Part shown: positions 38-63,107 of the stretch, piece by piece
How the letters are laid out: each line of letters begins with the position of its first letter
Numbering within the stretch: position 1 is the first letter of the stretch
Assembly (NCBI RefSeq): GCF_026151205.1
Contig: NC_087078.1
Coordinates: 8,448,675-8,512,674 of the forward strand
DNA from: Bolinopsis microptera
Taxonomy: Eukaryota > Ctenophora > Tentaculata > Lobata > Bolinopsidae
Length of the DNA stretch: 64,000 nt
Reading direction: 5' to 3'
Translations under genes and position numbers: made by a program
The notes under the pieces: model-generated
The model's database searches: none
The model's input: only the letters and a program-made list of their open reading frames with translations
What the model was told of the DNA's origin: nothing

Positions 38-1359
38 GTGGACGATAACAACTGGGCACGTAGAATGGCCAATGACTTGGAGGAAGCTGCTAGAAAAGGT
101 CAGCAACGTGAGGTATGGCAGAAGATCAATGTCATATCTGGAAAGAAGAAGAAGCAGTCAACTGCAGTTAGAGACGTATCTGGCCAGTTGATTGCCGACC
201 CACATGCCCAGAAAGAAAGGTGGAAAGAGCACTTCTCTAGGCTATTGAACCCTCCCCCGCAAGAGGCCAATATTTCTGACCTAGACAACATCCCTCCGCA
301 ACCCAGTTTTGACGACCTTTCCGATTCGGATGAAGCTCCTACAAGAAACGAGATTGTTGATGCCCTCAAAAAACTCAAGAATCACAAAAGTCCAGGAGTG
401 GATGGTATCACCAACGAGCAACTTAAGTATGGACAGGATGGGTTGGTCGATCAACTAGTTGTGTTGTTCAAGAAAGTGTGGGAAGATGAGAAGATTCCTG
501 AGGATTGGTCCAAAGGTGTTATTATCATCGTTGGAAAGAAAGGTGACACCTCTCATTGCGCTAACAACAGAGGCATTACATTAAGATCCACAGCCTCGAA
601 GCTCCTGCAGATGATACTCCTGCGGAGACTTAGCAATGGAATGGAAAAATTCCTTCGGGAGAATCAAAGTGGTTTTAGACAGAATCGCTCATGTATTGAC
701 CAGGTTTATTCACTCCGCTGTATTATTCACCAATGCATTGAGTATAATATCCCTCTGTATATTAATTTTGTTGATTTCAAAGCAGCTTTTGATTCAATTG
801 ACAGGCAGTTCATTTGGAGAAGTATGCAGCACTACGGCTTACCTGACAAGTACATTAGAATTATGAAGGCGTTCTTCACTCACACAGTTAGTGCTGTTAG
901 GGTCAATGGTGAGGTCACAGGTTGGTTTGATGTCAACTCGGGTACTGGGCAAGGTGATATACAGGGACCACCAGTCTTCAACTTTTGTTTGAATTTTTCG
1001 GCATACCTTATGGAACTGAACAAGGTCATTAGCAAAGGGGCTTTATTACAGCTGCCAGCCCCCGGGGTAGAAGAAAAACATCTTTTGGACACTGATTACG
1101 CTGATGACATGGCCATGTTAGATAACTCAAAAGAGGGGCTGCAGGAAACCACTGACCTTCTCTGCAAATACAGTGCCTATGCAGGTCTGAAGATTAATGC
1201 TGGCAAAACACAGAGCATGGTTGTCAGCAAAAGTGCATCGCAGAGGCCGTATTCTAAAGACGACACTATGGACATCAATGTGGAAGGTCTCCCAATACAG
1301 CAGGTCAGCAATTTCACTTACTTGGGTGCAATCATCAGTGCGAATGGAACAATTGACAA
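38..1359 (+). CDS. LINE A reverse transcriptase domain (5' fragment)
   Basis: About 440 residues, entered from beyond the left edge, so the first methionine is not a real start. RT landmarks appear in order: a thumb/finger lead-in with KSPGVDG (about residue 118), motif A FVDFKAAFDSI (about 245-255), motif B GTGQGDIQGPP, and motif C YADDMAML (about 357-364). The frame runs into the satellite insertion and stops 10 bases later. The enzyme copies element RNA by target-primed reverse transcription. This copy is incomplete at both ends and cannot be active. Confidence 0.85.
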
Positions 1360-4300
1360 TCTAATCTAAGTAAACTATAGGTAAAAATATAATATTAATC
1401 ATAAGCTAAAATGTACTAATCTTTGTATTCTAAATGGGGAAAAAGAGGGCGCCCAAGAAAACAAAGATCAACCAAATCTCGGAACCAATGGCCGGGAGAG
1501 ATATACATGTAATTATAGAGCAATATCAAGAAAAGCTATCAATTATGTATCCAACGGGGCGGAAGAACCGACCACCAGTACTTGATACCATGATACGGAC
1601 GTAATCTAAGTAAACTATAGGTAAAAATATAATATTAATCATAAGCTAAAATGTACTAATCTTTGTATTCTAAATGGGGAAAAAGAGGGCGCCCAAGAAA
1701 ACAAAGATCAACCAAATCTCGGAACCAATGGCCGGGAGAGATATAAATGTAATTATAGAGCAATATCAAGAAAAGCTATCAATTATGTATCCAACGGGGC
1801 GGAAGAACCAACCACCAGTACTTGATACCATGATACGGACGTAATCTAAGTAAACTATAGGTAAAAATATAATATTAATCATAAGCTAAAATGTACTAAT
1901 CTTTGTATTCTAAATGGGGAAAAAGAGGGCGCCCAAGAAAACAAAGATCAACCAAATCTCGGAACCAATGGCCGGGAGAGATATAAATGTAATTATAGAG
2001 CAATATCAAGAAAAGCTATCAATTATGTATCCAACGGGGCGGAAGAACCGACCACCAGTACTTGATACCATGATACGGACGTAATCTAAGTAAACTATAG
2101 GTAAAAATATAATATTAATCATAAGCTAAAATGCACTAATCTTTGTATTCTAAATGGGGAAAAAGAGGGCGCCCAAGAAAACAAAGATCAACCAAATCTC
2201 GGAACCAATGGCCGGGAGAGATATAAATGTAATTATAGAGCAATATCAAGAAAAGCTATCAATTATGTATCCAACGGGGCGGAAGAACCGACCACCAGTA
2301 CTTGATACCATGATACGGACGTAATCTAAGTAAACTATAGGTAAAAATATAATATTAATCATAAGCTAAAATGTACTAATCTTTGTATTCTAAATGGGGA
2401 AAAAGAGGGCGCCCAAGAAAACAAAGATCAACCAAATCTCGGAACCAATGGCCGGGAGAGATATAAATGTAATTATAGAGCAATATCAAGAAAAGCTATC
2501 AATTATGTATCCAACGGGGCGGAAGAACCGACCACCAGTACTTGATACCATGATACGGACGTAATCTAAGTAAACTATAGGTAAAAATATAATATTAATC
2601 ATAAGCTAAAATGTACTAATCTTTGTATTCTAAATGGGGAAAAAGAGGGCGCCCAAGAAAACAAAGATCAACCAAATCTCGGAACCAATGGCCGGGAGAG
2701 ATATAAATGTAATTATAGAGCAATATCAAGAAAAGCTATCAATTATGTATCCAACGGGGCGGAAGAACCGACCACCAGTACTTGATACCATGATACGGAC
2801 GTAATCTAAGTAAACTATAGGTAAAAATATAATATTAATCATAAGCTAAAATGCACTAATCTTTGTATTCTAAATGGGGAAAAAGAGGGCGCCCAAGAAA
2901 ACAAAGATCAACCAAATCTCGGAACCAATGGCCGGGAGAGATATAAATGTAATTATAGAGCAATATCAAGAAAAGCTATCAATTATGTATCCAACGGGGC
3001 GGAAGAACCGACCACCAGTACTTGATACCATGATACGGACGTAATCTAAGTAAACTATAGGTAAAAATATAATATTAATCATAAGCTAAAATGTACTAAT
3101 CTTTGTATTCTAAATGGGGAAAAAGAGGGCGCCCAAGAAAACAAAGATCAACCAAATCTCGGAACCAATGGCCGGGAGAGATATAAATGTAATTATAGAG
3201 CAATATCAAGAAAAGCTATCAATTATGTATCCAACGGGGCGGAAGAACCGACCACCAGTACTTGATACCATGATACGGACGTAATCTAAGTAAACTATAG
3301 GTAAAAATATAATATTAATCATAAGCTAAAATGTACTAATCTTTGTATTCTAAATGGGGAAAAAGAGGGCGCCCAAGAAAACAAAGATCAACCAAATCTC
3401 GGAACCAATGGCCGGGAGAGATATAAATGTAATTATAGAGCAATATCAAGAAAAGCTATCAATTATGTATCCAACGGGGCGGAAGAACCGACCACCAGTA
3501 CTTGATACCATGATACGGACGTAATCTAAGTAAACTATAGGTAAAAATATAATATTAATCATAAGCTAAAATGCACTAATCTTTGTATTCTAAATGGGGA
3601 AAAAGAGGGCGCCCAAGAAAACAAAGATCAACCAAATCTCGGAACCAATGGCCGGGAGAGATATAAATGTAATTATAGAGCAATATCAAGAAAAGCTATC
3701 AATTATGTATCCAACGGGGCGGAAGAACCGACCACCAGTACTTGATACCATGATACGGACGTAATCTAAGTAAACTATAGGTAAAAATATAATATTAATC
3801 ATAAGCTAAAATGTACTAATCTTTGTATTCTAAATGGGGAAAAAGAGGGCGCCCAAGAAAACAAAGATCAACCAAATCTCGGAACCAATGGCCGGGAGAG
3901 ATATAAATGTAATTATAGAGCAATATCAAGAAAAGCTATCAATTATGTATCCAACGGGGCGGAAGAACCGACCACCAGTACTTGATACCATGATACGGAC
4001 GTAATCTAAGTAAACTATAGGTAAAAATATAATATTAATCATAAGCTAAAATGTACTAATCTTTGTATTCTAAATGGGGAAAAAGAGGGCGCCCAAGAAA
4101 ACAAAGATCAACCAAATCTCGGAACCAATGGCCGGGAGAGATATAAATGTAATTATAGAGCAATATCAAGAAAAGCTATCAATTATGTATCCAACGGGGC
4201 GGAAGAACCGACCACCAGTACTTGATACCATGATACGGACGTAATCTAAGTAAACTATAGGTAAAAATATAATATTAATCATAAGCTAAAATGCACTAAT

Positions 4301-6937
4301 CTTTGTATTCTAAATGGGGAAAAAGAGGGCGCCCAAGAAAACAAAGATCAACCAAATCTCGGAACCAATGGCCGGGAGAGATATAAATGTAATTATAGAG
4401 CAATATCAAGAAAAGCTATCAATTATGTATCCAACGGGGCGGAAGAACCGACCACCAGTACTTGATACCATGATACGGACGTAATCTAAGTAAACTATAG
4501 GTAAAAATATAATATTAATCATAAGCTAAAATGTACTAATCTTTGTATTCTAAATGGGGAAAAAGAGGGCGCCCAAGAAAACAAAGATCAACCAAATCTC
4601 GGAACCAATGGTCGGGAGAGATATAAATGTAATTATAGAGCAATATCAAGAAAAGCTATCAATTATGTATCCAACGGGGCGGAAGAACCGACCACCAGTA
4701 CTTGATACCATGATACGGACGTAATCTAAGTAAACTATAGGTAAAAATATAATATTAATCATAAGCTAAAATGTACTAATCTTTGTATTCTAAATGGGGA
4801 AAAAGAGGGCGCCCAAGAAAACAAAGATCAACCAAATCTCGGAACCAATGGCCGGGAGAGATATAAATGTAATTATAGAGCAATATCAAGAAAAGCTATC
4901 AATTATGTATCCAACGGGGCGGAAGAACCGACCACCAGTACTTGATACCATGATACGGACGTAATCTAAGTAAACTATAGGTAAAAATATAATATTAATC
5001 ATAAGCTAAAATGCACTAATCTTTGTATTCTAAATGGGGAAAAAGAGGGCGCCCAAGAAAACAAAGATCAACCAAATCTCGGAACCAATGGCCGGGAGAG
5101 ATATAAATGTAATTATAGAGCAATATCAAGAAAAGCTATCAATTATGTATCCAACGGGGCGGAAGAACCGACCACCAGTACTTGATACCATGATACGGAC
5201 GTAATCTAAGTAAACTATAGGTAAAAATATAATATTAATCATAAGCTAAAATGTACTAATCTTTGTATTCTAAATGGGGAAAAAGAGGGCGCCCAAGAAA
5301 ACAAAGATCAACCAAATCTCGGAACCAATGGCCGGGAGAGATATAAATGTAATTATAGAGCAATATCAAGAAAAGCTATCAATTATGTATCCAACGGGGC
5401 GGAAGAACCGACCACCAGTACTTGATACCATGATACGGACGTAATCTAAGTAAACTATAGGTAAAAATATAATATTAATCATAAGCTAAAATGTACTAAT
5501 CTTTGTATTCTAAATGGGGAAAAAGAGGGCGCCCAAGAAAACAAAGATCAACCAAATCTCGGAACCAATGGCCGGGAGAGATATAAATGTAATTATAGAG
5601 CAATATCAAGAAAAGCTATCAATTATGTATCCAACGGGGCGGAAGAACCGACCACCAGTACTTGATACCATGATACGGACGTAATCTAAGTAAACTATAG
5701 GTAAAAATATAATATTAATCATAAGCTAAAATGTACTAATCTTTGTATTCTAAATGGGGAAAAAGAGGGCGCCCAAGAAAACAAAGATCAACCAAATCTC
5801 GGAACCAATGGCCGGGAGAGATATAAATGTAATTATAGAGCAATATCAAGAAAAGCTATCAATTATGTATCCAACGGGGCGGAAGAACCGACCACCAGTA
5901 CTTGATACCATGATACGGACGTAATCTAAGTAAACTATAGGTAAAAATATAATATTAATCATAAGCTAAAATGCACTAATCTTTGTATTCTAAATGGGGA
6001 AAAAGAGGGCGCCCAAGAAAACAAAGATCAACCAAATCTCGGAACCAATGGCCGGGAGAGATATAAATGTAATTATAGAGCAATATCAAGAAAAGCTATC
6101 AATTATGTATCCAACGGGGCGGAAGAACCGACCACCAGTACTTGATACCATGATACGGACGTAATCTAAGTAAACTATAGGTAAAAATATAATATTAATC
6201 ATAAGCTAAAATGTACTAATCTTTGTATTCTAAATGGGGAAAAAGAGGGCGCCCAAGAAAACAAAGATCAACCAAATCTCGGAACCAATGGCCGGGAGAG
6301 ATATAAATGTAATTATAGAGCAATATCAAGAAAAGCTATCAATTATGTATCCAACGGGGCGGAAGAACCGACCACCAGTACTTGATACCATGATACGGAC
6401 GTAATCTAAGTAAACTATAGGTAAAAATATAATATTAATCATAAGCTAAAATGTACTAATCTTTGTATTCTAAATGGGGAAAAAGAGGGCGCCCAAGAAA
6501 ACAAAGATCAACCAAATCTCGGAACCAATGGCCGGGAGAGATATAAATGTAATTATAGAGCAATATCAAGAAAAGCTATCAATTATGTATCCAACGGGGC
6601 GGAAGAACCGACCACCAGTACTTGATACCATGATACGGACGTAATCTAAGTAAACTATAGGTAAAAATATAATATTAATCATAAGCTAAAATGTACTAAT
6701 CTTTGTATTCTAAATGGGGAAAAAGAGGGCGCCCAAGAAAACAAAGATCAACCAAATCTCGGAACCAATGGCCGGGAGAGATATAAATGTAATTATAGAG
6801 CAATATCAAGAAAAGCTATCAATTATGTATCCAACGGGGCGGAAGAACCGACCACCAGTACTTGATACCATGATACGGACGTAATCTAAGTAAACTATAG
6901 GTAAAAATATAATATTAATCATAAGCTAAAATGTACT
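1360..6937. repeat. 240-bp satellite array, 23.2 units, inserted in a LINE
   Basis: The sequence repeats with an exact 240-bp period from 1360 to 6937 with no indel anywhere (5578 bp = 23 units plus 58 bp). Units are nearly identical. I see a C instead of T in atg(t/c)actaat in units at about 2133, 2853, 3573, 4293, 5013 and 5973. That is one unit in three for most of the array and then one four-unit step, so there is a 720-bp higher-order repeat. The first units carry edge-specific changes (atacatg near 1742 becomes ataaatg; aaccaacc near 1808), and one unit has gtcggg at 4611. The flanks share ACAA (1356-1359 and 6938-6941). Because the insert begins and ends with the same 58 bp, a single founder would have had 58-bp direct terminal repeats. 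Confidence 0.95.
1434..1604 (+). CDS. 56-codon open frame present in every satellite unit (first copy)
   Basis: Each 240-bp unit holds an ATG-to-TAA frame of 57 codons (MGKKRAPKKTK at the start, MIRT at the end), with a TAA directly upstream of the ATG. The predicted peptide is basic and lysine/arginine-rich at its N-terminus, with no signal peptide or membrane segment. Two of the rare unit variants change an amino acid: His/Asn at about residue 25 in unit 1 and Arg/Gln near residue 45 in unit 2. I recognise no family. It may be chance, since every unit descends from one founder and conservation across units therefore proves nothing. Confidence 0.2.
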   Translation: MGKKRAPKKTKINQISEPMAGRDIHVIIEQYQEKLSIMYPTGRKNRPPVLDTMIRT

Positions 6938-6941
6938 ACAA

Positions 6942-7515
6942 AGAACTGTCAGCTCGAATTCAAAAGGCCTCTGGGGCATTCTATCAGCTCAGCAGTATAT
7001 GGTACAGTCGCAACATCAAAACTCCAACTAAAATCAGGATTTACAAAGCGGCTGTTCTCACTATACTGCTTTATTGAAGTGAGGTATGGAATACCACACA
7101 GACGCAGATGAAAAGATTTGAGGTGTTCCATGATAGATGTCTGAGGAGAATCCTGAAAATAAAATGGTTTTATCATGTATCTAATGCTGATGTACTTAAG
7201 CGGGCTAACATCGCCCCTGTTGATACTTTCGTACGAGCAGCTAGACTCCGATGGTTTGGCCATGTGGTGAGGATGCCAGAAGAAAGAATACCCAACTATC
7301 TACTGCACTGGATCCCAAAGCATGGTAAAAGGTCAAGAGGTAGACCTCGGAAAAACTGGTTGTCATGTGTCCGGGAGGATGCAGCAATCTTCACAGGTGT
7401 CGATAACATCACGATAGAAGATGCAGAACAACAAGCTACAGACAGGGTTCACTGGAGAGGTCTAATACACCGGAGAAAGGAGTTACTATGTGGTGCAGGC
7501 CACTCCAACGACTAG
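6942..7515 (+). pseudogene. LINE A C-terminal region (3' fragment)
   Basis: This continues the LINE frame after the satellite. It reads IYKAAVLTILLY, then TGA (7075-7077), then SEVWN, and is open to the stop at 7513-7515. The conserved post-RT features are visible: a FEVFHDRCLRRIL stretch, RWFGHVVRMPEERIP, and GKRSRGRPRKNW. The 3' tail after 7515 has the aagtaagtag type of ending common in such elements. The internal TGA and the split make this a relic. Confidence 0.8.
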
Positions 7516-8345
7516 GAGGAGACCTTTTCAAGTACAAGTAAGTAGAAGGAGGAATTTCACTGTAATTAATTAACACATGGCTAGCGTCGGACGCAGCATA
7601 ACATACGCTTCTTATACACTTAATTATAGGGGAGTGGTCTATATTCGATTATATTGCGAAGGAGCAGACTAGACTTTGGCGACACCGTAGGTCCATCGGG
7701 CCACCTCATATATCCAAACCCGATTACTTATTCCCTACGATCTTTTTGCCTTCGGCAAGAGTAGGGAAAAAATTAAAATAATTTTAAGAATAATTGACTT
7801 TGTTTTTTAAATTTTTAAAATGGACGGCGTTTTTGTAACTTGATTTGAAATACGCGGCGATATTAAACAAGAATTGCGCCCGTTGTTTCGTTTTGGCGGA
7901 CGCTAGATTTCCATTTCACTATAAGTATAACTATTAATATAAGCTCTAATCAGCTCACCTTATAATAATAATATTGAAACATCAGTAGACTACGCGTGCC
8001 ACATTCAAGTTGGGCTTATTACAAAATACTATACATTACTAGTATACATTAAAATACGCTAGTGCCGCGCATTCATTGACCACAGACTAGCTATACACCA
8101 CATCTCCGCAAGCAATCCCCGTGCGCGCGCGCGCGGCAAGTTGACATGGAAACGAACGGAAGCAAGTAAGGAACACGACATATATTTGACCCACCTACCG
8201 CTATTTCCAAAATCCACGTTTTTCTGCAAAAACGTCCATTCGTAACCTTTCACTATTGCCTTTTTTCAAAAGGGTGAAAAGGAAAAAATGTTGGCAGTGT
8301 AATTGATGAGATATGCGTCATGCGATGGATTTTATTGAGTGATGC
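7516..8345. other. Intergenic stretch without a recognisable gene; one hairpin
   Basis: I see no coding frame with family resemblance here. At 7731-7768 there is a short inverted repeat: ttccctac at one end, gtagggaa at the other, and an inner ttgcc-ttc-ggcaa stem. The purine/pyrimidine run gcgcgcgcgcg near 8124 is a small Z-DNA-prone tract. Confidence 0.5.
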
Positions 8346-9464
8346 TTAAGGGGGCATACACCAAATCTGTCCAGACCAAATGACCTCATAAACAGTTCAG
8401 TGACCTTCTAGCGCACCGTTTCCACACCAAAAAAATTATTTTGAGAATACCCATTTTTGTAATCGAGCATTTCCTGGGTGAGACGCTATAAGTTAATCAT
8501 TTCCTGCGGTATCGAGTTGAAATTTTGCTCGCCGTTTATTCACATCTATTTCAAGGTGTGTGTAAAATCTTGATATCGTATCTAAAAAGGCTGGTGTGTT
8601 ATGAATTTTTAAAGTCAAAAAGCTAAAATTGTCCTTTTCAGGCTTATTTTAACAAAAAGACAGTCAGGAAAGATCGGATTGAATTGATGCTTGACATCAA
8701 ATTGTTCTCTGAATTCTGGCGCAGTTTTTGATACCCTCAAAAATGTTTTTACTCATTCAGCTTCAGATTTTGGCTTTGCAGATAAAAAATCACATTTTCT
8801 CCCATAACTTCAAAGGGAAGCATTTTAGGGTGTTTTGTTGTTCATAACTCATATATAAATGTGCTAGTTGCGGTTATTTTGCACCCTTCAAAAAGTCACT
8901 AGCACATTCCTATCAAAATTTTAGAAAAATCAGTAAATTTTAAAAACGAAAAAATGTGCCTAAATTTGTTGTTTGGCTTTGAGGTCCAATAGATCTGAAG
9001 CTGAATGAGTAAAAACATTTTTGAGGGCATCAAAAACTACGCCAGAATTCAGAGAACAATTTGATGTCAAGCATCAATTCAATCCGATCTTCCCTGACTG
9101 TCTTTTTGTTAAAATAAGCCTGAAAAGGACAATTTTAGCTTTTTGACTTTAAAAATTCATAACACACCAGCCTTTTTAGATACGATATCAAGATTTTACA
9201 CACACCTTGAAATAGATGTGAATAAACGGCGAGCAAAATTTCAACCCGATACCGCAGGAAATGATTAACTTATAGCGTCTCAACCACAAAATAATTTTTT
9301 CCGAAAATTGCACTCTCAACCAGGAAATGCTCGATTACAAAAATGGGTATTCTCAAAATAATTTTTTTTGGTGTGGAAAGGGTGCGCTAGAAGGTCACTG
9401 AACTGCCTATGAGGTCATTTGGTCTGGACGGCACAAACCACTGTTTTGGTGTATGCCCCCTTAA
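8346..9464. mobile_element. Foldback element with TTAA target duplication
   Basis: The ends are TTAA-GGGGGCATACACCA at 8346 and its exact inverse TGGTGTATGCCCCC-TTAA at 9447-9464. The inverted arms are about 420 and 469 bp (8350-8769 and 8992-9460), with a spacer of about 220 bp. The right arm carries about 35 extra bases near 9285-9320 that the left arm lacks. TTAA duplication is the piggyBac signature, but no transposase is present, so this is a non-autonomous, hairpin-forming element mobilised in trans. Confidence 0.85.
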
Positions 9465-11053: not shown

Positions 11054-13229
11054 CATATGAGCAATTTCTCCTTGAGGAAGAAGTAGGATAACAGCACTGT
11101 GAAGATAGGAGCAGTGGTCAGGAGAAGAGTGGCTTCACCTGCAGTAGTTTATTTAGGGGTACATATTACGTAATCAGCTTAGGGGGGAGGGGGTACATAT
11201 AACGTAATCAGCCGAGGGGGGGGGGGGGGGGGAGGGTCGCTTCACATGCAGTTGTTTATTTAGGGGTACATATTATTATTACGTAATCAGCCGAAGGGGG
11301 AGGGGGTACATATTACGAAATCAGCCGAGGGGGAGGGGGGGGGGGGTTCCCGAATGATCACGCTAGTGTAATTTTGACACAATAGCTATGTGTAAAACTA
11401 ATTCCAAAAAGTGATATTATGTGAACGACCCCTCAATAAATTTACCTGCTCAGTCTAGTCCAGTATAATTTTAATAGTTTATCTTTTTAATCGATATTAT
11501 TAGTTTTAAACTTATGGCAACACTAAAATCTATTAAATTTATAGAGTTTTATTATTTTATTAAAACTCATTTTTGGGTACTGGTAGAGTGGACTGCTGCC
11601 AGTGTCTCTCTTTCCAAAATTAAAGGAAATGATATCAATTTGAATAAATTTTGATATTTCAAAATGGGACAGAAATTTGAAAATAGTACTAGTTGTAAGC
11701 TTCCTCCGACCGGAATGAAACTTCCAGCACCTCAATTGTGTCCTATGCCACTTCATAATAGTTGACCGACTAATATTATAATTGGTCACCGGAAGAGAAA
11801 TTCGGTCAAAACTGTGAAATTTCGGTTCTAGAAATTTCATCTTCAAAAACTGAAAATGGAACTGAGAATGGGAAAATTAAATAATTTGTTTCACCTCTAA
11901 ATGAAAAGCTTTGATATAGTGATTGGTTGTTAAAACAAGCATACCAATTGGTAAATGTCGTAGAGCAAAGACAGTGGACATAGCAGTAAATGTACCAAGT
12001 AAGGCTGTTAGGAATATCATGTTGGTTTTGGGATACTCCATAGGGTTCTGGTATCTGAAATAATAATTACTACTAATAATTTCTACTAATTAGTTTTGAT
12101 GATAGTTTATTAAAACTGTAAAAGGTTTAAACATTAAAGATTGTAAGTTTAGGTTGAATCTTACCCTTTGTAGAAATTGATTAGAGACGTCAGAGCAAGT
12201 GTAAAGAAGAATCGCCACCACAAAATCTCTATTATTGGTAAACCGCTGATCAAATCTGAATGATAAATGAGCATTTAGCAAAGCTAGTTAGAAAATATAC
12301 ATTGCTGATCACGATTAATTTACAGTACGTCCACTGGTCAGCTGCGTTATTCTTACCACCTGACTTGATACACAACAAATTGACACAACGAATGGACCAA
12401 TCTGGGTGAATAGTCAAGTTTTTGCAAAGTACGTGATACTTGTACCCTGTACCCTGTACCCTGTACCCTGTACCCTGTACCCTGTACCCTGTACCCTGTA
12501 CCCTGTACCCTGTACCCTGTACCCTGTACCCTGTACCCTGTACCCTGTACCCTGTACCCTGTACCCTGTACCCTGTACCCTGTACCCTGTACCCTGTACC
12601 CTGTACCCTGTACCCTGTACCCTGTACCCTGTACCCTGTACCCTGTACCCTGTACCCTGTACCCTGTACCCTGTACCCTGTACCCTGTACCCTGTACCCT
12701 GTACCCTGTACCCTGTACCCTGTACCCTGTACCCTGTACCCTGTACCCTGTACCCTGTACCCTGTACCCTGTACCCTGTACCCTGTACCCTGTACCCTGT
12801 ACCCTGTACCCTGTACCCTGTACCCTGTACCCTGTACCCTGTACCCTGTACCCTGTACCCTGTACCCTGTACCCTGTACCCTGTACCCTGTACCCTGTAC
12901 CCTGTACCCTGTACCCTGTACCCTGTACCCTGTACCCTGTACCCTGTACCCTGTACCCTGTACCCTGTACCCTGTACCCTGTACCCTGTACCCTGTACCC
13001 TGTACCCTGTACCCTGTACCCTGTACCCTGTACCCTGTACCCTGTACCCTGTACCCTGTACCCTGTACCCTGTACCCTGTACCCTGTACCCTGTACCCTG
13101 TACCCTGTACCCTGTACCCTGTACCCTGTACCCTGTACCCTGTAGTGGGGCACTGACCTGTGAACAAGGAGCAGATAGCGAAGAAAAAGCAAGATAACAC
13201 AGTATAACCGTACACTTTAGTTTCGTCAG
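11054..13229 (-). CDS. SLC35G/EamA-like transporter gene, 5' portion (at least four exons)
   Basis: Four consecutive minus-strand exons join in phase: about 13229-13158, 12255-12165, 12054-11945 and 11138-11054, each with GT-AG borders. Joined, they read as drug/metabolite-transporter helices: YGYTVLSCFFFAICSLFT, then LISGLPIIEILWWRFFF, MIFLTALLGTFTAMSTVFAL, RHLPIGEATLLLTTAPIF and TVLLSYFFLKEKLLIW. This covers the first EamA repeat of a roughly ten-helix membrane carrier; the second repeat is not found in the window. The exon at 13158 may be preceded by one ending near 13421 (a gtaagt donor follows IEQSW), which is tentative. The substrate is unknown. The missing 3' half could lie beyond the window or be lost; a MITE sits where the next exon might be. 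Confidence 0.65.
11150..11346. repeat. G-rich minisatellite in an SLC35G-like intron
   Basis: Several copies of tttaggggtacatattacgt followed by aatcagccga and a guanine run; the longest runs are 17 G at 11216-11232 and 12 G at 11335-11346. The array lies in the intron 11139-11944 of the minus-strand carrier gene, so the transcript would be C-rich. Confidence 0.75.
11571..11845. repeat. Relic related to the foldback family at 38521 and 43284
   Basis: A stretch with tagagtggactgctgccag, gtgtctctctttcc and aaaggaaatgatatcaattt matches the terminal sequence of the foldback copies near 38550 and 43320 with scattered differences. It is a decayed interspersed copy inside the SLC35G-like intron. 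Confidence 0.5.
12441..13144. repeat. About 100 perfect copies of the heptamer TGTACCC, inside an intron
   Basis: TGTACCC repeats without a visible error for 704 bases (100.6 units). Because 7 is not a multiple of 3 and the unit contains no stop, several long frames cross it on both strands; none is a real gene. It fills most of the 902-bp intron (12256-13157) of the minus-strand SLC35G-like gene and starts 13 bases from the 5' splice site. In the transcript it reads (GGGTACA)n, with a GGG every seven bases, so G-quadruplex formation in the pre-mRNA is plausible. Confidence 0.95.
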
Positions 13230-18372: not shown

Positions 18373-18564
18373 GTAAGTATCGTTAGTCAGAGAGCTAGAG
18401 AAAGGGTGGCTATTACCTGAATAATAAAGTTTCAACTTTGTTTGCTTGTTAGTTTTTTTGATAATTTGTTTTAACTGCCGTGTTTTTTTGCTAAATTCCT
18501 AGATTAGTGACAACAATTCCGTAACTACATGTATATATTCATTACCCATTTTATCCCACAACAG
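18373..18564 (+). promoter_or_regulatory. Candidate 5' leader intron of MFS copy 1
   Basis: A GTAAGT at 18373 follows gaagtgcga, and a strong acceptor (ttatcccacaacag) ends at 18564, four bases before the ATG. This gives a 192-bp leader intron. Copy 4 has the same pair at 43851 and 44042, also 192 bp. Copies 2 and 3 read cgaATAAGT at this donor, so GT is lost there. The acceptor beside the ATG would also suit a trans-spliced leader. Confidence 0.45.
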
Positions 18565-18568
18565 AAAA

Positions 18569-20005
18569 ATGGAATCGGAAAATAACGAAAAAAGTCTGCT
18601 GACAGCCGCAATTGAGCAGTCTTCAAGCTCGTCTAGGAAGTCACATACCATAGGCGAAGCTATAGAACGATTGGGATGTGGATTCGGTTCGGTTTTGTAC
18701 GGTTTAGGGCCATATTGTTTCTGCTTTATTTCCGGAGCCGAAGTGGCTGTAATGTCAGTAGTAAGCTTGATTTTGAAATGTGAGTGGGACCTGTCAACTT
18801 TCTTGACTTCAACACTTCAAATCATCAGTATGATTACTTCTACAATTTTCGCCCTCTTACTATCTCATCTTGGAGATAGGTATGGAAGGAGGATAGTATT
18901 AATTATCACAACCATCGCATTACTTTCATCAGGAATATTGTCAGGACTCGCTAGAAATCTTTGGCAGTTACTTATCTGCAGGGCCATTGTTGGGGATAGT
19001 GGAGGCATTGGAGGTGGTCCTGCGGCTGCCTATTCAGCAGAAATACCAACGATAAAATACAGGTCACTCAGCATGTCATCTGTAGGAATCGGCTGGGGTG
19101 TTGGAACAGCACTTAGCAGTGGATTGGCTTATCTTACGCTTGGACCATATGGATGGCGAGGCTACTTGATCATCACTGCACTTCTATGTTCACCAATCTT
19201 AGTTCTTCTCTTTATAATCAGAGAATCTCCAAGACATGACGTCCGGATGGGTAAATTGGAAAATGCCCAAGAAACTTTGAAAACACTAGCCTACTTGAAC
19301 TGCACTAAAGAACTGGAGGAGGTTGAAATTACCCTGGACAATAATTCTGAGGAACTGGAAATTACATCCTTTTATCAAAGCTATCAAATTTTGATGACTA
19401 CAGGCTATCTATCAGATTTTTGGAAGCTTGTGATCATAACATTGACGGGAGAGTTTGTTTACATGGGTATGCTTTATGCAGCTCCTCTCTTCGTGGACGA
19501 AGGTCCTTGTCATTCGGTGAAAATCACACAGAAACAGTCTTGTTCATTTGACAATTCTGTTTTATTTGATCTTGGGGTCATCGGACTAGCTGAACCAGTC
19601 AGTTTAGTTATAGGACTTCTTCTCCTTGATAAGATAGGGAGAAGAAACTTGTTTTTTATCTCCAGCCTTATTCCAGCTTTTGTTTTCATCCCACTATACT
19701 TTTGCATACCTTCCGCTTTAACGTTGACGGTCCTCCTTATGAACAGAGGTACACTGGCTGTAATGGGCTGGTTAAATTTCGTCATTGCTTCCGAATATTT
19801 TCCAACATCCGTCAGATCTTTTACATCTTCGATAATCGGCAGTTGTAGCAGCTTAACCAGTGTAATTGCTTCTTTTGCTGTCCAATATGCATATCACCAA
19901 AGTTCGGGTTTAGTTGTAATTATAATGCAAATCGCACTATTGGTTACAACCGGTGTGATATACAGTATAAAGAGGGAAATGACAGGTGAACAACTTGAAC
20001 AATAG
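18569..20005 (+). CDS. SV2/SVOP-like MFS transporter, copy 1
   Basis: A single-exon 478-aa major facilitator with about 12 hydrophobic helices. The family signatures are GDRYGRR in the loop after helix 2 (about 102-108), AAAYSAEIPT and a glycine-rich helix 5 (about 150-185), GPYGWRGY before helix 6, ESPRH after it, DKIGRR in the loop after helix 8, and ASEYFPTSVRSF after helix 10. This places it with SV2/SVOP and SLC22-type carriers of small organic solutes at a membrane; the substrate cannot be read. Copy 1 alone has aspartate at residue 143, in a GASGGIGGG-type stretch of helix 4 where the other copies have alanine. That could impair packing. The start is the ATG just after a candidate splice acceptor. 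Confidence 0.85.
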   Translation: MESENNEKSLLTAAIEQSSSSSRKSHTIGEAIERLGCGFGSVLYGLGPYCFCFISGAEVAVMSVVSLILKCEWDLSTFLTSTLQIISMITSTIFALLLSHLGDRYGRRIVLIITTIALLSSGILSGLARNLWQLLICRAIVGDSGGIGGGPAAAYSAEIPTIKYRSLSMSSVGIGWGVGTALSSGLAYLTLGPYGWRGYLIITALLCSPILVLLFIIRESPRHDVRMGKLENAQETLKTLAYLNCTKELEEVEITLDNNSEELEITSFYQSYQILMTTGYLSDFWKLVIITLTGEFVYMGMLYAAPLFVDEGPCHSVKITQKQSCSFDNSVLFDLGVIGLAEPVSLVIGLLLLDKIGRRNLFFISSLIPAFVFIPLYFCIPSALTLTVLLMNRGTLAVMGWLNFVIASEYFPTSVRSFTSSIIGSCSSLTSVIASFAVQYAYHQSSGLVVIIMQIALLVTTGVIYSIKREMTGEQLEQ

Positions 20006-25916: not shown

Positions 25917-26190
25917 GTATGTATAGACTATGGATATTATACTACAGTGGATAGTTCACACGCAACTCATTGTCCCCATTGAAAGAAGTGCGAATAAGTG
26001 TCGTTAGTCAGAGAGCTAGAGAGAGGGTGGCTATTACCTGAATAATAAGGGTTCAACTTTGTTTGCTTGTTAGTTTTTTTGATAAATTGTTTTATATTGC
26101 CATTTTTTTTTGCTAAATTCCTAGATCAGTGACAACAATTCCGTAACTACATGTATATATTCATAACCCATTTTATTCCACAACAGAAAA

Positions 26191-27630
26191 ATGGAATCGG
26201 AATTAAATAACGAAAAAAGTCCGCTGACAGCCACAATTGAGCCGCCTTCAAGCTCGTCTAGGAAGTCACATACCATAGGCGAAGCTATAGAACGATTGGG
26301 ATGTGGATTCGGTTCGGTTTTGTACGGTTTAGGGCCATATTGTTTCTTGTTTATGTCCGGAGCCGAAGTTGCTGTAATGTCAGTAGTAAGCTTGATTTTG
26401 AAATGTGAGTGGGACCTGTCAACTTTCTGGACTTCAACACTTCAAATCATCGGTATGATTACTTCTACAATTTTCTCCCTCTTACTATCTCATCTTGGAG
26501 ATAGGTATGGAAGGAGGATAGTATTAATTATCACAACCATCGCATTACTTTCATCAGGAATATTGTCAGGACTCGCTAGAAATCTTTTGCAGTTACTTAT
26601 CTGCAGGGCCATTGTTGGGGCTAGTGGAGGCATAGGAGGTGGTCCTGCGGCTGCCTATTCAGCAGAAATACCAACGATAAAATACAGGTCACTCAGCATG
26701 TCATCTGTAGGAATCGGCATGGGTGTTGGAACAGCACTTAGCAGTGGATTGGCTTATCTTACGCTTGGACCATATGGATGGCGAGGCTACTTGATCATCA
26801 CTGCGCTTCTATGTTCACCAATCTTAGTTCTTCTCTTTATAATCAGAGAATCTCCAAGACATGACGTCCGGATGGGTAAATTGGAAAATGCCCAAGAAAC
26901 TTTGAAAACACTAGCCTACTTGAACTGCACTAAAGAACTGGAGGAGGTTGAAATTACCCTGGACAATAAATCTGGGGAACTGAAAATTACATCCTTTTAT
27001 CAAAGCTATCAAATTTTGATGACTACAGGCTATCTATCAGATTTTTGGAAGCTTGTGATCATAACATTGACGGGAGAGTTTGTTTACATGGGTATGCTTT
27101 ATGCAGCTCCTCTCTTCGTGGACGAAGGTCCTTGTCATTCGGTGAAAATCACACAGAAACAGTCTTGTTCATTTGACAATTCTGTTTTATTTGATCTTGG
27201 GGTCATCGGACTAGCTGAACCAGTCAGTTTAGTCATTGGACTTCTTCTCCTTGATAAGATAGGGAGAAGGAACTTGTTTTTTATCTCCAGCCTTATTCCA
27301 GTGTTTGTTTTCATCCCACTATACTTCTGCATACCTTCCGCTTTGAAGTTGACGGTCCTCCTTATGAACAGAGGTACACTGGCTGTAATGGGCTGGTTAA
27401 ATTTCGTCATTGCTTCCGAATATTTTCCAACATCCGTCAGATCTTTTACATCTTCGATAATCGGCAGTTGTGGCAGCTTAACCAGTGTAATTGCTTCTTT
27501 TGCTGTCCAATATGCATATCGCCAAAGTTCGGGTTTAGTTGTAATTATAATGCAAATCGCACTATTGGTTACAACCGGTGTGATATACAGTATAAAAAGG
27601 GAAATGACAGGTGAACAACTTGAACAATAG
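26191..27630 (+). CDS. SV2/SVOP-like MFS transporter, copy 2
   Basis: 479 aa, single exon, near-identical to copy 1. It has ELNNEK near the start (one extra residue), GASGGIGGG in helix 4, and methionine in place of tryptophan in the helix 5 stretch GIGMGVG. All signature motifs (GDRYGRR, ESPRH, DKIGRR, ASEYFPTSVRSF) are intact, so it is expected to fold as a membrane carrier. The upstream leader donor reads AT instead of GT at 25994, so if the leader intron is real this copy must be transcribed or spliced differently. Confidence 0.85.
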   Translation: MESELNNEKSPLTATIEPPSSSSRKSHTIGEAIERLGCGFGSVLYGLGPYCFLFMSGAEVAVMSVVSLILKCEWDLSTFWTSTLQIIGMITSTIFSLLLSHLGDRYGRRIVLIITTIALLSSGILSGLARNLLQLLICRAIVGASGGIGGGPAAAYSAEIPTIKYRSLSMSSVGIGMGVGTALSSGLAYLTLGPYGWRGYLIITALLCSPILVLLFIIRESPRHDVRMGKLENAQETLKTLAYLNCTKELEEVEITLDNKSGELKITSFYQSYQILMTTGYLSDFWKLVIITLTGEFVYMGMLYAAPLFVDEGPCHSVKITQKQSCSFDNSVLFDLGVIGLAEPVSLVIGLLLLDKIGRRNLFFISSLIPVFVFIPLYFCIPSALKLTVLLMNRGTLAVMGWLNFVIASEYFPTSVRSFTSSIIGSCGSLTSVIASFAVQYAYRQSSGLVVIIMQIALLVTTGVIYSIKREMTGEQLEQ

Positions 27631-34719: not shown

Positions 34720-35277
34720 TAAATGATAACTTTAAAATCCTTTTTAGAACCTAAACTGTGTATGATTCGCCTCTCCAAACAAATCTAAAGAAAATCCTTT
34801 TATGAACACTGAATTATTGTTCAAATTGTTCAATTCAATCAACTTGCAATGAAATTTGGGATATTAAGTAAAAACTTACAATTCTAAGGTTGGTCTGAAC
34901 CAAACTTAAAAAAATTAGCAAAAAATGAAAAATTGGAAGCAACTTAAGCAAAAAATAGCTCTTAAGTTGAAACTAAGCAAAAATCGAAGTAAAAACTTAA
35001 TTCAAAAATTTTGCTTGAAAATTTGCTAACTTTGTTACTTAAGTTGGTTTTCGGAACGGATTTTAGCAAAAAAGGGAAAACTAAGCAATATTTACTACTA
35101 AGTTTCATTTCGGAAAGGACCCCCTGAATAATAAGGGTTCAACTTTGTTTGCTTGTCAGTTTTTTTTTGATAAATTGTTTTAATTGCCATGTTTTTTTGC
35201 TAAATTCCTAGATTAGTGACAACAATTCCGTAACTACATGTATATATTCATAACCCATTTTATTCAACAACAGAAAA

Positions 35278-36717
35278 ATGGAATCGGAATTAAATAACGA
35301 AAAAAGTCCGTTGACAGCCGCAATTGAGCCGTCTTCAAGCTCGTCTAGGAAGTCACATACCATAGGCGAAGCTATAGAACGATTGGGATGTGGATTCGGT
35401 TCGGTTTTGTACGGTTTAGGGCCATATTGTTTCTTGTTTATGTCCGGAGCCGAAGTGGCTGTAATGTCAGTAGTAAGCTTGATTTTGAAATGTGAGTGGG
35501 ACCTGTCAACTTTCTGGACTTCAACACTTCAAATCATCAGTATGATTACTTCTACAATTTTCGCCCTCTTACTATCTCATCTTGGAGATAGGTATGGAAG
35601 GAGGATAGTATTAATTATCACAACCATCGCATTACTTTCATCAGGAATATTGTCAGGACTCGCTAGAAATTTTTGGCAGTTACTTATCTGCAGGGCCATT
35701 GTTGGGGCTAGTGGAGGCATTGGAGGTGGTCCTGCGGCAGCCTATTCAGCAGAAATACCAACGATAAAATACAGGTCACTCAGTATGTCATCTGTAGGAA
35801 TCGGCTGGGGTGTTGGAACAGCACTTAGCAGTGGATTGGCTTATCTTACGCTTGGACCATATGGATGGCGAGGCTACTTGATCATCACTGCACTTCTATG
35901 TTCACCAATCTTAGTTCTTCTCTTTATAATCAGAGAATCTCCAAGACATGACGTCCGGATGGGTAAATTAGAAAATGCCCAAGAAACTTTGAAAACACTA
36001 GCCTACTTGAACTGCACTAAAGAACTGGAGGAGGTTGAAATTACTCAGGACAATAATTCTGGGGAACTGGAAATTACATCCTTTTATCAAAGCTATCAAA
36101 TTTTGAGGACTACAGGCTATCTATCAGATTTTTGGAAGCTTGTGATCATAACATTGACGGGAGAGTTTGTTTACATGGGTATGCTTTATGCAGCTCCTCT
36201 CTTCGTGGACGAAGGTCCTTGTCATTCGGTGAAAATCACACAGAAACAGTCTTGTTCATTTGACAATTCTGTTTTATTTGATCTTGGGGTCATCGGACTA
36301 GCTGAACCAGTCAGTTTAGTTATAGGACTCCTTCTCCTTGATAAGATAGGGAGAAGAAACTTGTTTTTTATCTCCAGCCTTATTCCAGTTTTTGTTTTCA
36401 TCCCACTATACTTCTGCATACCTTCCGCTTTGACGTTGACGGTCCTCCTTATGAACAGAGGTACACTGGCTGTAATGGGCTGGTTAAATTTCGTCATTGC
36501 TTCCGAATATTTTCCAACATCCGTCAGATCTTTTACATCTTCGATAATCGGCAGTTGTGGCAGCTTAACCAGCGTAATTGCTTCTTTTGCTGTCCAATAT
36601 GCATATCACCAAAGTTCGGGTTTAGTTGTAATTATAATGCAAATCGCACTATTGGTTACAACCGGTGTGATATACAGTATAAAGAGGGAAATGACAGGTG
36701 AACAACTTGAACAATAG
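35278..36717 (+). CDS. SV2/SVOP-like MFS transporter, copy 3
   Basis: 479 aa, single exon, with all family motifs intact (GDRYGRR, GASGGIGGG, GIGWGVG, ESPRH, DKIGRR, ASEYFPTSVRSF). It differs from copies 1 and 2 at only a few positions (for example NFWQLL where copies 1 and 4 have NLWQLL and copy 2 NLLQLL, and ITQDNN for ITLDNN). The promoter-side region is interrupted by Harbinger A, which lies between the ctagatagaaggtagctatt leader and the gene, about 150 bp upstream of the ATG. Transcription may therefore depend on the transposon's sequence. Confidence 0.85.
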   Translation: MESELNNEKSPLTAAIEPSSSSSRKSHTIGEAIERLGCGFGSVLYGLGPYCFLFMSGAEVAVMSVVSLILKCEWDLSTFWTSTLQIISMITSTIFALLLSHLGDRYGRRIVLIITTIALLSSGILSGLARNFWQLLICRAIVGASGGIGGGPAAAYSAEIPTIKYRSLSMSSVGIGWGVGTALSSGLAYLTLGPYGWRGYLIITALLCSPILVLLFIIRESPRHDVRMGKLENAQETLKTLAYLNCTKELEEVEITQDNNSGELEITSFYQSYQILRTTGYLSDFWKLVIITLTGEFVYMGMLYAAPLFVDEGPCHSVKITQKQSCSFDNSVLFDLGVIGLAEPVSLVIGLLLLDKIGRRNLFFISSLIPVFVFIPLYFCIPSALTLTVLLMNRGTLAVMGWLNFVIASEYFPTSVRSFTSSIIGSCGSLTSVIASFAVQYAYHQSSGLVVIIMQIALLVTTGVIYSIKREMTGEQLEQ

Positions 36718-43769: not shown

Positions 43770-44046
43770 GTATGTATATAGACTATTATAATATTATACT
43801 ACAGTGGATAGTTTACACGCAACTCATTGTCCCCATTGAAAGAAGTGCGAGTAAGTGTCGTTAGTCAGAGAGCTATAGAGAGAGGGTAGCTATTACCTGA
43901 ATAATAAGGTTTCAACTTTGTTTGCTTGTTAGATTTTTGTTTGTTGATAAATTGTTTTAATTGCCGTGTTTTTTTTGCTAAATTCCTAGATTATTGACAA
44001 CATGTATATTATATATTTGTAACGCATTTTATTCCACAACAGAAAA

Positions 44047-45483
44047 ATGGAATCGGAAAATAACGAAAAAAGTCCGCTGACAGCCGCAATTGAGCCGTCT
44101 TCAAGCTCGTCTAGGAAGTCACATACCATAGGAGAAGCTATAGAACGATTGGGATGTGGATTCGGTTCGGTTTTGTACGGTTTAGGGCCATATTGCTTCA
44201 AGATTATGGCAGGAGCCGAAGTGGCAGTAATGTCAGTAGTAAGCTTGATTTTGAAATGTGAGTGGGACCTGTCATCTTTCTGGACTTCAACACTTCAAAT
44301 CATCAGTATGATTACTTCTACAATTTTCGCCCTCTTACTATCTCATCTTGGAGATAGGTATGGAAGGAGGATAGTATTAATTATCACAACCATCGCATTA
44401 CTTTCATCAGGAATATTGTCAGGACTCGCTAGAAATCTTTGGCAGTTACTTATCTGCAGGGCCATTGTTGGGGCTAGTGGAGGTATTGGAGGTGGTCCTG
44501 CGGCAGCCTATTCAGCAGAAATACCAACGATAAAATACAGGTCACTCAGCATGTCATCTGTAGGAATCGGCTGGGGTGTTGGAACAGCACTTAGCAGTGG
44601 ATTGGCTTATCTTACGCTTGGACCATATGGATGGCGAGGCTACTTGATCATCACTGCACTTCTATGTTCACCAATCTTAGTTCTTCTCTTTATAATCAGA
44701 GAATCTCCAAGACATGACGTCCGGATGGGTAAATTAGAAAATGCCCAAGAAACTTTGAAAACACTAGCCTACTTGAACTGCACTAAAGAACTGGAGGAGG
44801 TTGAAATTACCCTGGACAATAATTCTGAGGAACTGGAAATTACATCCTTTTATCAAAGCTATCAAATTTTGAGGACTACAGGCTATCTATCAGATTTTTG
44901 GAAGCTTGTGATCATAACATTGACGGGACATTTTGTTTACATGGGTATGCTTTATGCAGCTCCTCTCTTCGTGGACGAAGGTCCTTGTCATTCGGTGAAA
45001 ATCACACAGAAACAGTCTTGTTCATTTGACAATTCTGTTTTATTTGATCTAGGGGTCATCGGACTAGCTGAACCAATTAGTCTAGTCATAGCACTTCTTC
45101 TCGTTGATAAGATAGAGAGAAGGAACTTGTTTTTTATCTCCAGCCTTATTCCAGTTTTTGTTTTCATCCCACTATACTTCTGCATACCTTCCGCTTTGAC
45201 GTTGACGGTCCTCCTTATGAACAGAGGTATACTGACCATATTGGGATGGTTAACCTACGTCATTGCTTCCGAATATTTTCCAACATCCGTCAGATCTTTT
45301 ACATCTTCGATAATCGGCAGTTGTGGCAGCTTAACCAGTGTAATTGCTTCTTTTACTGTTCAATATGCATATCATGAAAGTCCGGGTTTAGTTGTAATTA
45401 TAATGCAAATCGCACTAGTGGTTACAACCGGTGTGATATATAGTATCAAGCGGGAAATGACAGGTGTACAACTTGAACAATAG
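44047..45483 (+). CDS. SV2/SVOP-like MFS transporter, copy 4 (divergent C-terminal half)
   Basis: 478 aa, single exon. The N-terminal half matches the other copies apart from CFKIMAGAEVAV near residue 51. The C-terminal half carries clustered changes: TGHFVYM for TGEFVYM, VIALLLVDKIERR for VIGLLLLDKIGRR (this loses the glycine of the conserved GRR loop), and RGILTILGWLTYVIASEYF for RGTLAVMGWLNFVIASEYF. Changes in helices 7-11 could alter substrate choice, and the clustering suggests gene conversion or selection. The leader intron donor is intact (GTAAGT at 43851). Confidence 0.85.
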   Translation: MESENNEKSPLTAAIEPSSSSSRKSHTIGEAIERLGCGFGSVLYGLGPYCFKIMAGAEVAVMSVVSLILKCEWDLSSFWTSTLQIISMITSTIFALLLSHLGDRYGRRIVLIITTIALLSSGILSGLARNLWQLLICRAIVGASGGIGGGPAAAYSAEIPTIKYRSLSMSSVGIGWGVGTALSSGLAYLTLGPYGWRGYLIITALLCSPILVLLFIIRESPRHDVRMGKLENAQETLKTLAYLNCTKELEEVEITLDNNSEELEITSFYQSYQILRTTGYLSDFWKLVIITLTGHFVYMGMLYAAPLFVDEGPCHSVKITQKQSCSFDNSVLFDLGVIGLAEPISLVIALLLVDKIERRNLFFISSLIPVFVFIPLYFCIPSALTLTVLLMNRGILTILGWLTYVIASEYFPTSVRSFTSSIIGSCGSLTSVIASFTVQYAYHESPGLVVIIMQIALVVTTGVIYSIKREMTGVQLEQ

Positions 45484-62456: not shown

Positions 62457-62509
62457 TATATATTTATCTGTGCCATTTTACTGACACCACGGCATCAACT
62501 TTAGGGAAA

Positions 62510-63107
62510 TTGGTAGATCACCGACCGGCTATAAGCCGGTTATAAGCCGGCTATAAACCGGCTTATAGCCGGCTACAATTTTTATAGCCGGCTATAAGCC
62601 GGCTTATAGCCGGTTAGTAGCCGCTTACATTTGTTGTTGAGCGACGGCTATTAGCCGGTTATAAGCCGGCTATTAGCCGTTTAGGTATCGAAAGTGGTTA
62701 TAAGCCGGCTATAAGCCGGCTATAAGATATTAACTTAACTTCATCGTACTGAACTGAGTTAATATCTTATAACCGGCTTATAACCACTTTCGATACCTAA
62801 ACGGCTAATAGCCGGCTTATAACCGGCTAATAGCCGTTTTCACTGAATTTCTTATAGCCGGCTCCTGACTATCGTTCAGTACGATGTAGTTGAGTTAATA
62901 TCTTATAACCGGCTTATAACCACTTTTAATACCAAAACGGCTAATAGCAGGCTTATAACCGGCTAATAGCCGTCGCTCAACAACAAATGTAAGCGGCTAC
63001 TAACCGGCTATAAGCCGGCTTATAGCCGGCTATAAAAATTGTAGCCGGCTATAAGCCGGCTTATAGCCGGTTAGTAGCCGGCTTATAGCCGGTCGGTGAT
63101 CTACCAA
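62510..63107. mobile_element. Foldback-like element made of TATAAGCCGGC motifs
   Basis: 598 bp with ends TTGGTAGATCACCGACCGGC and its inverse. The arms are filled with 10-11-bp palindromic motifs (ctataagccgg, ttatagccggc). Internally the block taatatcttataaccggctt occurs twice directly (62760 and 62898) and once inverted (about 62700-62735), so several fold-back states are possible. It starts 54 bp upstream of the Penelope-like ATG. No target duplication is evident. Confidence 0.8.

Follow-up and report, generated by a model that had tools for sequence, protein, structure and literature searches.

How a long tandem array can come to stand inside the reading frame of another element is the question raised by a locus of Bolinopsis microptera, in which some two dozen copies of a 240-bp repeat interrupt the reverse transcriptase (RT) frame of a long interspersed nuclear element (LINE). 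The window, that is, the whole stretch of 64,000 nucleotides that was analyzed, corresponds to C7:8448675-8512674, and the genome searches described here covered a 264.7-Mb assembly of 232 contigs. The array very probably descends from a Penelope-like element (PLE) by internal deletion and was inserted in the manner of a PLE as a non-autonomous copy. Its parent, its deletion junction, its orientation, its exact 3' end, its 5' truncation and its target duplication are established, as is the head-to-tail arrangement of undeleted PLEs.

The target can be read directly from other LINE copies. On the plus strand of the window, the LINE RT frame (RVT_1; Pfam and LINE matches) occupies positions 26-1359 up to the insertion, and the frame after the insertion occupies 6942-7074 (alignment of LINE copies). 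The left flank of the LINE has at least 40 matches in the genome, the window's own included. All 11 LINE copies that were fetched, which are the best left-flank matches after the window itself from the 40 listed, carry the empty site ATTGACAAAGAACT and read ...GTID/KELS..., where the slash marks the point of insertion. Because the site is empty in 11 of 11 copies and ACAA stands on both sides of the insert (1356-1359 and 6938-6941, plus strand), a 4-bp target duplication is demonstrated. A sequence-only reading of the window had supposed that a 240-bp array entered a formerly continuous LINE frame and that ACAA was its target duplication, and the empty sites confirm both suppositions. The LINE copy itself is not intact, since it has a premature stop at 7075-7077, and it was not necessarily functional when hit. 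That stop is missing at the corresponding codon in 10 of the 11 LINE copies, and the 11th (L050) is frameshifted there.

Tandem Repeats Finder (TRF) reports a period of 240 with 23.2 copies, a 99% match and no indels at 1362-6938. The insert as a whole (1360-6937) consists of TC, 23 units and 56 bp. The two extra bases TC (1360-1361, plus strand; GA on the sense strand of the array) lie outside the unit, between the duplication and the 3' end of the element, and the array proper, 23 units plus 56 bp, spans 1362-6937 with its sense strand on the minus strand (TRF, unit comparison and alignment to the parent). The terminal repeat that had been read as 58 bp is really these 56 bp of array and one chance base of the duplication. 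Compared unit by unit, the array departs from the consensus nine times in 5,577 bp, at four columns. Units 1, 2 and 14 have one each, and column 53 has a T>C change in units 4, 7, 10, 13, 16 and 20, forming a three-unit pattern. In simulation, a run of five at spacing three has P 0.001, and a run at any constant spacing P 0.006. The array had been called perfectly phased, which holds for the absence of indels and the 99% match but not for complete uniformity, in view of these departures. A common parental polymorphism was rejected as the source of the column-53 variant, the T>C change being found in 1 of 60 element contexts.

The parent of the array emerged from a search of the genome with 441 bp of the array. 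Of the 83 matches, some fall in the array itself or in a stretch of C10 discussed below; the others are dispersed, and most of these break off at a single point in the unit. Alignment of the surroundings of the dispersed matches revealed a 3,829-bp element, which is best seen in L013 (2086-5914), where further partial copies lie head to tail on its flanks. In the window array, this PLE reads in the sense direction on the minus strand. The unit is composed of element bases 1-157 and 3747-3829, with a 2-bp overlap (TC) at the deletion junction and one mismatch in 240; at the site of this mismatch, the fetched element contexts have C in 39 cases and T in 31. In unit 1, the last 83 bp of the PLE (element 3747-3829) are found at 1362-1444 and the first 157 bp (element 1-157) at 1445-1601, both on the minus strand by alignment to the parent, and the overlap falls at 1445-1446. 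The founder is thereby neither an independent 298-bp element with terminal repeats nor a 240-bp circular DNA, as had been proposed, but the fused ends of a PLE. Splicing was rejected as the source of the internal deletion, because the junction is not GT-AG.

The parent PLE has a 924-aa open reading frame (ORF). A GIY-YIG domain (PF01541) is recognized at residues 70-116 of 924, with 25.6 bits against a cut-off of 22.6. The window also holds a canonical PLE ORF with a C-terminal GIY-YIG domain at 60003-62474 on the minus strand. By blastp, the parent matches this canonical PLE in the nuclease (29-115 vs 655-742, 1e-9) and in the RT (687-854 vs 326-494, 4e-4). The domain order of the parent is thus permuted, with the nuclease first and the RT second, opposite to that of the window's canonical PLE. 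Between the two domains there is a CDC motif, which may correspond to the CxC linker motif of Naiad-type PLEs. The nuclease-first layout is that of Naiad-type PLEs. A solved relative of the 924-aa protein was not found at E up to 1.

Both edges of the array resemble those of other insertions of this PLE. The edge at 1362, TTAGATTA, coincides exactly with the parent's 3' end and is common to other insertions: a 22-base pattern for this end, with up to one mismatch allowed, is matched 434 times across the genome, this array's matches included, and its control has no match. Fifty copies, the first 50 places among the 3'-end pattern matches listed, were read; 25 of them stop within ~480 bp of the 3' end, at scattered points, and 25 run further (L097 and L099, whose flanks are identical, probably represent a single event). 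Given this scatter of 5' ends, the other edge of the array, the 56-bp partial unit at 6882-6937 (minus strand; unit comparison and other PLE copies), which breaks off after 56 nt of a unit, is a 5' truncation of the ordinary kind. In a set of 12 other PLE copies with both ends visible, short extra bases and duplications of 4-7 bp can be recognized by eye in L036, L039, L044 and perhaps L031.

The tandem layout is shared with the undeleted parent. The head-to-tail junction (TAGATTA/NGTCCG, the slash marking the joint) has 43 matches, listed with 0-1 mismatches, of which 23 belong to this array, four to the C10 duplicate and 16 to other places; reversed as a control, the pattern matches nine times at up to two mismatches. 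Fourteen of those elsewhere, in 13 loci, run into the undeleted element, and the remaining two belong to L022. The 5' ends were tallied for 40 of 53 candidates, so that the counts are lower bounds, and among those scored the junction is present in all 14 copies that reach base 1 or 2. Junction-crossing copies stop 8, 58, 163-203, 337, 734 bp and more beyond the junction, with none of those seen ending precisely at base 1. A head-to-tail partial tandem is the normal layout of the parent PLE, and the array with its terminal repeat follows this layout, only the unit being much shorter. A second deletion derivative, L022, is independent of the array, and in it bases 2-92 and 3782-3829 form a 137-bp unit; it is also tandem (~2.3 units) and is interrupted by another insertion. 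A related PLE family, with 39% amino-acid identity to the parent in the nuclease part, provides an array of undeleted copies at C5:23559378-23570550 (L116 and L117), where 3.3 copies of 3,350 bp contain three open frames of 959 aa and, when compared with one another over ~7.8 kb, vary at a single column. The junction of this family occurs 10 times in five loci; three of these junctions lie in the C5 array and four in a single C6 locus. The latter, C6:13645900-13659400, is a head-to-tail array known from the search tables and one 901-base stretch (L111), and 461-bp stretches of the C5 and C6 arrays are 97% alike.

The array itself was not found as a genome-wide family. The sequence-only reading had proposed a search for other 240-bp arrays, and the deletion-junction pattern (up to two mismatches) has 25 matches, 23 here and two at C10:155806-156804, and is thus confined to this locus and a noisy duplicate of it. 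The C10 stretch (L028; C10:153000-162000) matches window positions 645-9458 at ~89.5% with scattered indels; the match takes in both LINE flanks and the extra GA, and it adjoins a clean LINE stretch. Its 3'-most unit has the variant of unit 1, and these shared features led us to reject C10 as an independent second array. Of 17 aligned units, three have the column-53 variant, each where the window would lead one to expect it, while one expected position contradicts the pattern and one is unreadable. By eye, the C10 stretch, which holds 18 full units, lacks the changes peculiar to units 2 and 14. The C10 stretch is a noisy second rendering of the locus, either an allele of another length or an error in the reads or the assembly, and its noisy ~8 kb are likely to be unpolished reads placed at the wrong site. 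It confirms the physical presence of the array.

These observations would fit the following course of events. A deleted RNA, in which element 1-157 was joined to 3747-3829, would have been present in circular or multimeric form; such a template is suggested because the deletion-junction search found no source array in the genome from which a linear multimer could have been transcribed. The PLE's own target-primed reverse transcription into the LINE would have started at the fixed 3' end, and the enzyme may have read unit after unit until it stopped 56 nt into another. Later, part of the array may have been re-amplified in place in three-unit (720-bp) steps, as the period-3 variant pattern suggests. 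We lean towards arrival as an oligomer over expansion at the site, given that the two deletion derivatives seen are both tandem and that full-length elements also form an array.

Several points weigh against this account of a PLE derivative. The assignment of the parent as a Naiad-like PLE is suggested by domain order and not by a tree, and Pfam RVT_1 has no match in the 924-aa ORF. For most of the 12 further PLE copies with both ends visible, the target duplication is not clear-cut. At least 15 copies end at element bases 22-93, at least 14 of them at 22-69, and at least two end at 94-315; the pile-up at bases 22-69 suggests that many templates were monomers starting near there, and bases 22-93 are perhaps a transcript start zone. 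The 5' ends of insertions also show no pile-up at the cut predicted for a ribozyme-like match in the parent, described below, since two of the 25 truncated ends among the 50 copies lie within 2 nt of it. Finally, the period-3 pattern is unlike the product of a single copying of a 240-nt circle. Growth at the DNA level must therefore have contributed, and it could account for the whole copy number.

This last point leads to the best-surviving alternative, which concerns the copy-number step only. A junction-crossing PLE insertion, with 56 bp of the upstream copy's tail and a full element, would have lost 3,589 bp via a small-overlap deletion and then grown to 23 units by unequal exchange between direct repeats. 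One PLE copy, L019, does extend 58 bp past the junction, an overlap of 2 bp suffices for the deletion, and both the period-3 pattern and the 18 full units of the C10 duplicate, which may be a length allele, are consistent with such growth. However, insertion, deletion and expansion would be needed in succession, and twice, once for the 240-bp array and once for L022. Both deletion derivatives are tandem among the listed copies that have the element's first bases (deletions up to base 315), and the undeleted array of three near-identical copies shows that multimers arise without deletion. Expansion in place is accordingly a serious possibility, though the less probable of the two courses.

The other alternatives fare considerably worse. 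If the array were a retrozyme-type element, a self-cleaving ribozyme in each unit would give rise to small circular RNA and thereby to tandem DNA. The size, the tandem layout and the suspected link to PLEs do fit animal retrozymes (PMC7229834), and to this extent the retrozyme-like shape of a small tandem retroelement had been aptly noted earlier. In the 240-bp unit, however, the Rfam ribozyme scan, hammerhead included, found nothing at gathering scores or at E up to 10, in line with the earlier statement that the unit has no intact hammerhead core. The covariance-model scan and the folding that had been suggested as checks thus gave no ribozyme and a folding z of -0.16, 84 of 200 shuffles folding at least as well. 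Without a ribozyme or unusual folding and with one locus only, the unit fails the retrozyme tests; the parent's ribozyme-like match lies in the deleted part, and a retrozyme is very unlikely. A satellite captured elsewhere as extrachromosomal circular DNA and integrated as a concatemer with one start point could be expected to look alike, but it has no source array in the genome and would predict neither a left edge at the exact PLE 3' end nor a right edge formed by 5' truncation, which leaves it slightly more improbable still. An assembly artefact is the least credible explanation, for although arrays are prone to misassembly and the locus has a noisy copy in C10 in which the changes peculiar to units 2 and 14 are not seen by eye, that copy runs from one LINE flank through the array into the other, has scattered errors of its own and retains the variant of unit 1 together with some of the period-3 pattern.

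The ribozyme-like match of the parent is a lead. A twister-P5 match is located at element 3603-3660 (L013:5688-5745), with 28.8 bits, E 0.0036 and a threshold of 37.6. It recurs in 16 of 20 scanned copies, with a best score of 31.1 bits, these being close relatives and not independent support. The segment is missing from both the 240-bp unit and the L022 unit. A motif in family C (L109: about 444-503) resembles it by eye, with no Rfam report; P2 would be GGUG/CACC in one family and AGGG/CCCU in the other, and P4 CCA/UGG and UCA/UGA (by eye), so that both helices would stay paired despite the changed bases, a point in favor of the motif, whereas P1 does not align between the two families and MAFFT leaves P2 of family C unaligned. 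A twister-like pattern, written after both families had been seen, picks out the motif of family C and has no match in the window or in 20 shuffles. The Rfam scan of eight loci, taken from PLE families B, C, D and E and from upstream of a family-A ORF, found no ribozyme. Twister scores of this size can arise by chance, since a twister-P3 match in an inverted-repeat stretch of the window scores alike (29.6 bits, E 0.0068). The region upstream of the canonical PLE ORF, 62525-63092 of the window, has CCGGCTATAAG-type repeats with many sub-threshold matches to hairpin models, including twister-P3. Twister cleavage as the cause of the 5' ends of insertions is unsupported, as 15 of the 25 truncated ends lie at 3602-3721 with no peak at the cut, which is predicted at U/A near 3632/3633. 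A broader scheme is conceivable but rather improbable: Naiad-type PLEs in this genome would use a twister-like ribozyme instead of a hammerhead and be copied from circular or multimeric RNA, so that the period of each array would equal the circumference of its template (3,829, 3,350, 240 and 137 nt), and loss of the ribozyme would leave RNA untrimmed and allow one retrotransposition event to found a satellite.

Elsewhere in the window, a 7-bp repeat, TGTACCC, is present in 100.6 copies with a 100% match at 12441-13144 (TRF). Four transporter-like ORFs in the same orientation, of 486-500 aa and very similar by eye, lie at 18503-20005, 26167-27630, 35254-36717 and 44023-45483.

The tandem layout of PLEs and the birth of satellites from transposable elements are already known. 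Craig et al. in 2021 reportedly described Naiad-type PLEs with an N-terminal GIY-YIG domain. The parent is like Naiad-type PLEs in its nuclease-first order, in its pseudo-long terminal repeat (pseudo-LTR) and tandem layout and in that no hammerhead was found, and it differs in the 240-bp deletion derivative that forms a long satellite-like array and in the twister-like match. The Poseidon PLE of Anolis shares the tandem pseudo-LTR layout and a fixed start of reverse transcription on the RNA, but has a hammerhead and a C-terminal nuclease (PMC11167929). Animal retrozymes are head-to-tail repeats of 150-450 bp for which PLEs are suspected helpers, whereas the array described here has no hammerhead, is not unusually self-paired and is found at a single locus with a 4-bp duplication (PMC7229834). 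In satellites derived from tandem repeats of transposons, part of an element is likewise amplified in tandem, while here the parent, the junction, the target and both founding edges are visible (PMC7004042; PMC12628747). Truncated twisters in RTE elements are mentioned in one paper (PMC7761336). The portions of the open literature searched contain no report that we found of a twister inside a PLE, or of a satellite-like array of a PLE deletion derivative with its parent and empty site.

The births of satellites are usually lost to later homogenization, and at this locus parent and deletion junction can still be read, together with the empty site and both edges. The arrays of undeleted PLEs offer a direct comparison for the 240-bp array. 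Together they tie the birth of a tandem array to PLE reverse transcription and make the idea of a circular template for PLEs testable. If the twister-like motif cleaves, the use of ribozymes in PLEs would extend beyond hammerheads.

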